A stretch of DNA of 64,000 nucleotides from assembly GCA_016744475.1 (NCBI GenBank), contig JADGEH010000007.1, positions 1 to 64,000 on the forward strand, given 5' to 3'. Position numbers and translations under genes: made by a program. The first letter of the stretch is position 1. Every line of letters begins with the position of its first letter. Origin of the DNA: Thiotrichales bacterium (lineage in GTDB: Bacteria > Pseudomonadota > Gammaproteobacteria > Beggiatoales > Beggiatoaceae). The notes under the pieces are model-generated. The model saw only the letters and a list, made by a program, of their open reading frames with translations, was not told the DNA's origin and ran no database searches. This document shows, one piece after another, positions 15,775 through 18,700 of the stretch.

Positions 15775-18700
15775 TTGAAAAAAGGCGGGGACAGGAGGCT
15801 GCATCAAAGCGTCCACGCTCAACTCACAGCGCCAATCACCGGGTAACAATTCTTCACAGAATTGCTCACCAAATTGACAAATTCTGCGCTCAAACACGAG
15901 TTCAAGAGAACAAAATTCTTCAGGAATAAATTCCACGACAGGTTGAAACACCATGACTTGGCGGGCGCGTCCACGGCGGCGAGTATCGCTGCTTTGTCCC
16001 TCAAACGGCACATGGAATTCCAAAATATCGTTATTCACCCCAATTTGGCTGCGGTCTATGTTGTCCACATTGTCTAGCACCTGCACGTCAAATTGAGGTT
16101 TTACAAGATATTTTTTTCCCGCCGCAATGGCTGTAAAAGTGCCGTTGACGTTACGGACGACTTTATCTACCCCTTCGTATCCTTCCCCTAGTGCTTGAAA
16201 TTCATCCGGTTCTAATACCGCAGGATTCACCACTTGTGCTCGTCCATCAGGATAAACAAAGGTGGCTTTGTGTTGATTATCAGTCGGCAAAACAGAGTTA
16301 ATGCGTCGTCCGGGAGGAGAAAAATGCAATCCAGGCTGTAAGGTCGGTGGGAATAAGAGCGGATCACAGACACAGCCTTCAGGGGCGAGTGTTTCTGCGT
16401 TGGGTATGAACTCTGGAGCCAGTTGTTCAGGAGGAATGATGCCGCAGAAGGCCATGCAGAGAAAAGCTTCGGGGGCCGGTTCGACAAAAGCTTGGAAAGT
16501 GGCGACTTGGCGGGCACGTCCCCGACGGCGGGTATTGTCTGCGTAATCGAAGAACACGCTGCCGTCTGGACTGACTTGCGTATAGCTGTCTGCCCCCAAG
16601 GCTTGTGGCATGGTTTCGGGTTGAGCCGGAGCGGGTAAGACGCGGAAGGATTCTCCGCTGGGCGTCACCACGACGCTGAATCCGCCTTCATCGGTGGTTA
16701 AACCAATCGGCATACTTTGATTGACCATGATGATGTTGTTGGGATCAGGCACAAAGGCCAGTTCAAACTGAGGATCAAAAGAGGCGGACACTTTCAATAT
16801 GCCCGTGGATTTTTGTGAGAGTGAAAATTGGCTAAACGGTGTGTCGCTGCCTCCCGAACTGGAACCCGTGCCCGTGCCCGTGCCCGTGCCTGTGCCTGTG
16901 CCTGTGCCTGTGCCTGTGCCTGTGCCTGTGCCTGTGCCTGTGCCTGTGCCCGTGCCTGTGCCTGTGCCTGTGCCTGTGCCTGTACCCGCGTTACCACTAC
17001 TCACATCCATGCTGGTTTGCATATTGCTCAGGGCGCTGCCTGTGCGGCCTTGTCCACCCACACTGAAACCGCTGCTGAGATCAGGGACGGGCGGCAAACT
17101 GACTTGCGGCGACAGGTCTTCAGGCATATCCAGTTCACGATAGGTAATAGCGGTGCCTGTGGGAGCGCCTAAATCTCCGGTGGCTAAATCAATCGTCCAG
17201 TCTTTAGGTAACATATCCACCACTAACTCCGGTGTGATCTGCTCAGGACTGAAGTTCACCATGAGTTTTGATAATGCCAGGCTGGGTAGCTGTTGCACTT
17301 CGGCTTCATTCAGTGCATCGACTTGTTCAGGATTCAAGGTATCCAAGACATCATTGGACAGGGCCGAAAGGCTGTCACCATTCAAATCACTTAATGATTC
17401 AGGCGGTAAATCAGCCACTTGTTGTGGTGTGATGCCGGCGACAGCTTCCGTGTTTAAATTGGCTAATTGTGAAGCGCTGAGTTGACTGAAAGCCGCTGCT
17501 GGAATAGCGGTTAATTGCTCGCTATTGAGTTGGCTTAAAGTGGTAGGCGGCACGCTCACGATGGTGTCGGCTGTCAATGCTGCGAAGGTGGCCGTTGGGA
17601 TATTGGCCATCGGATTGACCGCATCCGGTGCTAGCGGGGGTTCAAAGGTGGCAGTACAGACTTTGTCGCCATTCAGCAGAACTTGACCACTGGCATCGCA
17701 ATCACCGCCCCAACCTGTAAACAACCAGTCATCCTGGCGCACGGCTTTGAGCAGAATGTCATAAAAAGGCGGATATTGTCCTTGTCCATCTACACGTCCG
17801 CGCCCTTCTACAATCACGGTCAAACTGAAGGTGTCTTGGGTGAAGCTCAGACCACAGGTTTTGATGCGATCCATCAGCACGCCAATATAGGGTTTGCTCA
17901 CATCGCCTGAACAATCGCCAGACCAACCTAAGAAGTACCAATTCGTGGCGGGGACGGCTTGCAAGAAAGCACTGCTGCCCGGGGCAAAGTCGCCTAAGCC
18001 TGTCACGTCACCTTCGCCCGTGATATTGACCTTAAGCGCAAAATCGGTGTTGATGTCACTAAACGCCGCCGTACAACTGTGATGCGTTGTCACCGTCAGC
18101 GTGCCTTGGCTATCACAATCACCGCTCCAACCGTCCAGTTGCCAGCCTTCCAGAGGGGTGGCGACGAGTTGCACACTGTCACCCCACAGATAATCTCCCG
18201 CCCCTGCAATGCTACCTTGTCCATCCACAACGGCGGACACCGTGAAACTTTGGCGTGTGAACTGTGCGGTGCAGTGTTTGTCACCCTCCATCAGCACCGT
18301 GCCATCGGCAGAACAATCGCCCGTCCAAGCACTGAGTAACCAGCCTTCAGCGGGTGTCGCGGATAATTGTACGGTGTCTCCGGCGGGATAATCCCCCGTG
18401 CCACTGATGTTACCTTGTCCTTGAGCGCTGGCGCTGAGGTTAAAAGAGGTGAGCGCAAAATGCGCTATGCAGCTTTTATCTGCGTCCATTAATACCTGTC
18501 CATCCAGGCCGCAATCACCGCTCCAGCGTGTAAACGTCCAATTTGTAGCAGGCGTGGCGCTCAGTTGCACAAGCTCTCCCGCTACATAATCACCTGCGCT
18601 GCTGACTTGGCCTTGTCCATCCATCGCAGTGCTTAAATGAAATAGCGCTTGGCTGAACTGCGCCGTACAGGCTTTGTCGCTATCCATTTGGAGGGGGAGC

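Follow-up and report, generated by a model that had tools for sequence, protein, structure and literature searches.

A candidate C-terminal sorting or anchoring domain of large surface proteins in Beggiatoaceae

In the PEP-CTERM/exosortase and GlyGly-CTERM/rhombosortase systems a C-terminal homology domain is found on many unrelated Sec-exported proteins, with many copies per genome, a sporadic occurrence among genomes, and targets that are usually encoded apart from the sorting enzyme. The C-terminal domains of the T9SS in Bacteroidota are likewise folded, beta-rich and attached to diverse large surface proteins. Here we describe a tail domain with comparable properties in Beggiatoaceae, a mostly uncultured family that is home to the largest known bacteria (Thiomargarita). 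The tail differs from PEP-CTERM and GlyGly-CTERM domains in being folded and about 240-350 residues long, and it does not have their layout of a short motif, a transmembrane helix and a basic tail; no stretch of membrane-helix grade was found in any tail (maximum Kyte-Doolittle value 1.52, 19-residue windows). It also differs from PEP-CTERM in that many tail-rich genomes are without exosortase. Compared with T9SS domains it is several-fold larger and its host belongs to the Gammaproteobacteria, and the NCBIfam T9SS tail models gave no match at E <= 1 with 16 tails. Unlike type I secretion RTX proteins, the two giant proteins described below have Sec-type N-termini and no RTX Pfam match. Pfam autotransporter models matched neither these proteins nor the 16 tails and fold comparison gave no convincing match; a role of the tail as an autotransporter (type V) translocator is unlikely. 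By the features tested, the tail works like C-terminal sorting tags and is a member of none of the PEP-CTERM, GlyGly-CTERM, T9SS or RTX systems. We infer, with a probability of roughly 0.55, that it serves as a common C-terminal sorting or anchoring tag for a large set of Sec-exported Beggiatoaceae surface proteins.

The window analysed, a stretch of 64,000 nucleotides at the start of contig JADGEH010000007.1 of a Thiotrichales bacterium, contains two giant open reading frames on the reverse strand. Giant protein 1 (15772-25878, minus strand, 3368 aa) has, from N- to C-terminus, a Sec-type signal, NHL repeats, RCC1 repeats, a choice-of-anchor Q domain (21082-21252, minus strand), InlB-type repeats, an alpha-solenoid, a connector, a linker and the tail. 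Giant protein 2 (27846-42374, minus strand, 4842 aa) begins with a Sec-type signal followed by beta-helix and He_PIG repeats and six stretches of choice-of-anchor Q, after which InlB-type repeats, solenoid, connector, linker and tail follow in the same order. The NCBIfam name choice-of-anchor refers to surface-protein domains that stand ahead of differing C-terminal sorting signals. The earlier note on this DNA took the two for otherwise different proteins, which does not hold, as residues 1312-2964 of giant 1 and 2744-4382 of giant 2 can be aligned with 57.5% identity; judged from their sequences, the giants are paralogues across about 2000 C-terminal residues. A gene for an AraC-type regulator (26146-27180, minus strand) sits between the two giant genes, on the strand that they share.

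The tail occupies 15775-16830 (minus strand, 352 aa, two homologous units) in giant 1 and 27849-28880 (minus strand, 344 aa) in giant 2, and the two copies are 77% identical over 334 aa (78% when the whole giants are aligned), so that the common C-terminal region of about 345 residues reported before stands. Its description as an unrecognised region was also upheld. Scanning of 16 diverse tails found no Pfam, NCBIfam or PDB-sequence match beyond scattered single-member matches (best E 0.007), and nothing recognised on the tail was found in a literature search. When the profile of unit 1 was compared with that of unit 2 by hhalign, the two were matched with a probability of 98% (E 4e-14, 78 columns), and by this comparison of profiles the tail is an internally duplicated two-unit domain. 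AlphaFold models it as mostly beta, with pLDDT >90 across much of the core, and in a linker-free relative the solenoid, connector and tail were modelled together with a mean pLDDT of 86 and a pTM of 0.81. No fold match was obtained in the PDB with Foldseek at E <= 0.001 (best VIA Z 3.9 over 59 residues) or in a viral structure library; a novel fold does not follow from this absence of a convincing match. The number of Cys residues per tail is mostly even (0, 2, 4 or 8), which would suit disulphide bonds formed outside the cytoplasm, and the tail is probably a folded, disulphide-stabilised domain.

It had been noted that [T/A]RRRGRARQV occurs twice per tail and that xxFQ..VE..PE and Cys residues come after each copy, and both features were found in both giants. 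In giant 1 TRRRGRARQV lies at 16504-16533 in unit 1, where a basic loop leads into a conserved beta strand (DNA pattern match 16505-16530), and at 15955-15984 in unit 2 (match 15956-15981). In giant 2 TRRRGRARQV is at 28554-28583 in unit 1 (match 28555-28580) and ARRRGRARQV at 28005-28034 in unit 2 (match 28006-28031); all four are on the minus strand. The DNA pattern was matched four times within the window, two per giant gene, with 0 expected from shuffles, by which chance similarity was ruled out. The two copies of the motif reflect the internal duplication of the domain. In the model of the linker-free relative the basic stretch forms a low-confidence loop ahead of a long strand, and the Cys residues are located in the hairpin that follows this strand.

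The conserved block does not begin with the tail. The earlier note had placed the conserved region after the linker, which is correct for the tail and incomplete for the block as a whole, as the solenoid and a connector of about 100 residues ahead of the low-complexity linker are also conserved. Both linkers are tandem arrays in the DNA, a (GT)n linker in giant 1 (16868-16983, minus strand, 6-bp array repeated 19.3 times) and a 33-bp array repeated 8.6 times in giant 2 (28921-29204, minus strand); they are insertions absent from most relatives, in which the connector runs straight into the tail. The connectors, conserved together with the tail, lie approximately at 16984-17283 and 29205-29519, and the ALTTAQ-like alpha-solenoids approximately at 17284-17613 and 29520-29849, all on the minus strand. 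The giant 2 solenoid scored above the curated cut-off for PF20080 (ALTTAQ_rpt; 29.4 bits vs 26.4) and giant 1 had no PF20080 match at E <= 0.01; among 12 solenoids, 11 matched at E <= 1 (best 5.9e-14). By fold the solenoid resembled human mesothelin (Foldseek probability 0.98-1.00, E 1.5e-3 to 7e-3; VIA Z 4.9 over 70 residues), and in sequence the likeness was weak (PF06060, with 5 of 12 members at E <= 1 and a best E of 0.005). This likeness to ALTTAQ and to the mesothelin-type superhelix concerns the solenoid, which would be the stalk, and not the tail. A literature search on ALTTAQ found nothing. The solenoid, which in the L049 module spans residues ~13-138, also has a strong sequence match to HeliScrew4 in the PDB (E 1.8e-28). 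Upstream of the solenoid most relatives (L049-L077) have a beta-solenoid-like block with repeated GGxLxGxIxNxGxIxNVxxxxGAxLTGG, which was not seen in the giants of the window.

In a profile search the tail was found in 32 of 42 Beggiatoaceae genomes, representing 20 of 25 genera; outside the family, no match was given by the 365 genomes sampled from the rest of the class or the 397 from the rest of the phylum. The genomes were sampled one per species, and many are draft or metagenome assemblies. Beggiatoaceae comprise 25 genera (PMC11172852), the same number as in our family sample. Conservation past the source genome is thus established, and the reading of the tail as specific to this genome was dropped; it is apparently restricted to Beggiatoaceae. 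Its matches in the family total about 200, on up to about 20 large proteins per genome, and the named relatives that have it are Thiomargarita, Thioploca, Ca. Parabeggiatoa and Ca. Halobeggiatoa. Together with the agreement on 25 genera, these names gave the family assignment. An alignment of the closer tails recovered 38 loci, and a single-sequence scan of genome contigs recovered none; in a more diverse alignment no stretch was sufficiently conserved. The source genome (G000) has 12 matches, including seven strong full-length tails and a decayed tail fragment (L089, G000:C211) that shares 93% identity with the tail of giant 1. In one protein (L126, G000:C7) the C-terminal tail breaks off inside unit 1.

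At the named loci the tail forms the C-terminus of the protein, with 0-17 residues beyond it; longer extensions were seen in a few remote members. A simple hydrophobicity rule detected a signal h-region in 19 of the 27 proteins whose N-terminus lies within the locus, both giants included. Tail-bearing proteins are large and have surface-type repeats, usually with a solenoid ahead of the tail, and choice-of-anchor U/Q domains occur upstream. Other choice-of-anchor Q proteins in Beggiatoaceae have different C-terminal ends, which indicates that the tail is not needed by every such protein. The passengers can be unrelated even where the tails are close, as in L057/L067 (78% tail identity, 0% of the passenger alignable), L053/L055 (73%, 0%) and L056/L061 (87%, 27%). 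For 23 of 30 tails the nearest tail was found within the same genome (shuffled mean 4.2, maximum 12), as for tags that are matched to one host partner, and this within-genome likeness could come in part from recent whole-gene duplication. One C-terminal domain on unrelated Sec substrates, alike within a genome, resembles C-terminal sorting and anchoring tags, and this spread over unrelated passengers fits the common function, such as export or anchoring, that had been proposed.

The earlier note had suggested looking for a co-occurring export or protease gene; in the neighbourhoods of the tail genes no such gene was recurrent and no neighbour was constant. In many-to-one sorting systems the targets are without a constant neighbour (PMC3237569), and the tail loci agree with this. 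Neighbourhood searches revealed no partner enzyme or translocon, and low-copy genomes, searched for a dedicated partner along the suggestion of PMC3237569, yielded none. An xrtH-like exosortase pair near L081 and L082 was considered as a partner and dropped, since most tail-rich genomes lack exosortase. Exosortase (PF09721) was found in only 14 of 32 tail-positive genomes, and so is not required, and in 2 of 10 tail-negative genomes; it was not found in G003, G006, G008, G011, G020, G021, G024 or G025.

Alternatively, a dedicated protease might cut the tail at the RRRGRAR sites, which had been offered as one possible shared job of the region. The basic stretch does occur twice per tail, and in both AlphaFold models it lies between strands with a confidence below that of the core. 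However, the basic residues differ in number (0-6 per loop) and position (among 40 tails, R103 is basic in 28%, R105 in 29% and R107 in 40%), and the strand after the motif is far better kept (V109 in 80%, F112 in 37/40, D113 in 35/40, P114 in 37/40, E117 in 37/40), a pattern that would not be expected if cleavage at RRRGRAR were required. In remote members the loop is shortened or lost, and no protease gene recurs in the tail neighbourhoods. Within the domain RRRGRAR forms a variable loop, and the conserved element is the VxxFDPxxE strand after it; the basic RRxGxAR loops probably lie exposed and are not what defines the tail. Proteolytic processing at these sites was not borne out, and we regard it as very improbable. 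The tail might instead be a structural cap or an oligomerisation domain that closes long repeat proteins against proteolysis and has no role in localisation, as a well-folded domain that follows an alpha-solenoid and long beta repeats would suit this purpose and the related type B domain, described below, is sometimes duplicated in tandem. Yet the tail also follows proteins that have no solenoid (L078, L079), and in the giants of the window it is set apart by long flexible linkers that a cap would not need. Homogenisation of the tail over the passengers of one genome is also unexpected for a cap, and such a function appears unlikely.

A greater, although still doubtful, possibility is that the tail is a binding module for slime or sheath polysaccharide, a mineral or another surface protein, C-terminal by happenstance and not a sorting tag; the proteins might then be secreted along a general pathway, for example type II secretion, and be attached by the tail to the extracellular matrix. 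The basic loops would agree with binding, as would the adhesion-type repeats and the mesothelin-like solenoid upstream. Canonical GspD, the T2SS secretin, was found in 31 of 32 tail-positive and 5 of 10 tail-negative genomes, and being nearly universal in Beggiatoaceae gives little information by itself. TPS exoproteins accompany the tail in 32 of 32 genomes as against 3 of 10 tail-negative ones (Fisher p 4e-6), or 20 of 20 genera vs 2 of 5 (p 0.004); this correlation is confounded by phylogeny, and such system correlations are weak guides. Some of the TPS genes are immediate neighbours of tail genes, at seven loci on the downstream side and at one on the upstream side. A C-terminal place on many unrelated passengers is nevertheless more typical of a sorting tag, and the tail has no match to a carbohydrate-binding family or fold. 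The TPS genes beside tail genes, of the filamentous-haemagglutinin type, are on G000:C220, G027:C50, G032:C384, G032:C178, G018:C395, G060:C69, G061:C527 and G016:C77.

If the tail is a sorting or anchoring tag, the proteins would first be exported by Sec and the tail would fold in the periplasm, its Cys residues pairing into disulphides. A genome-specific partner in the outer membrane or envelope might then recognise the tail and display or retain the passenger at the surface. The solenoid, the connector and the variable linker would serve as a stalk, and the basic RRxGxAR loops could touch the partner or anionic polymers of the envelope or slime. Such a partner would represent a novel machine for secretion or anchoring. 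As a domain apparently restricted to Beggiatoaceae and absent from domain libraries, the tail offers a way to study how these cells construct and coat their surfaces and adhere by them, and it can be used as a marker in annotating their surface proteins.

The tail has a homologue in a further C-terminal domain, type B (hhalign probability 96%, E 4e-9), which is also found at the end of large proteins, sometimes two in tandem. Type B differs from the tail in ending with YPxGxxQxLY (YPNGDxQxLY) and in having no RRxGxAR loop, and it gave no Pfam match. Type B is nearly confined to Beggiatoaceae, with one match among 365 genomes of other families (G257, L138), and is present in the tail-negative genome G004. 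We offer only as a tentative and rather unlikely proposal that tail and type B together belong to an unrecognised sorting system of giant sulfur bacteria with a dedicated envelope machine, one that might resemble T9SS or exosortase in its working, be unrelated to both, and recognise a large folded C-terminal domain. Type B was observed at L127, L123 and L134-L145. Elsewhere in the window, 50015-52425 (plus strand) holds a probable restriction-modification pair that includes a C5-cytosine methyltransferase.
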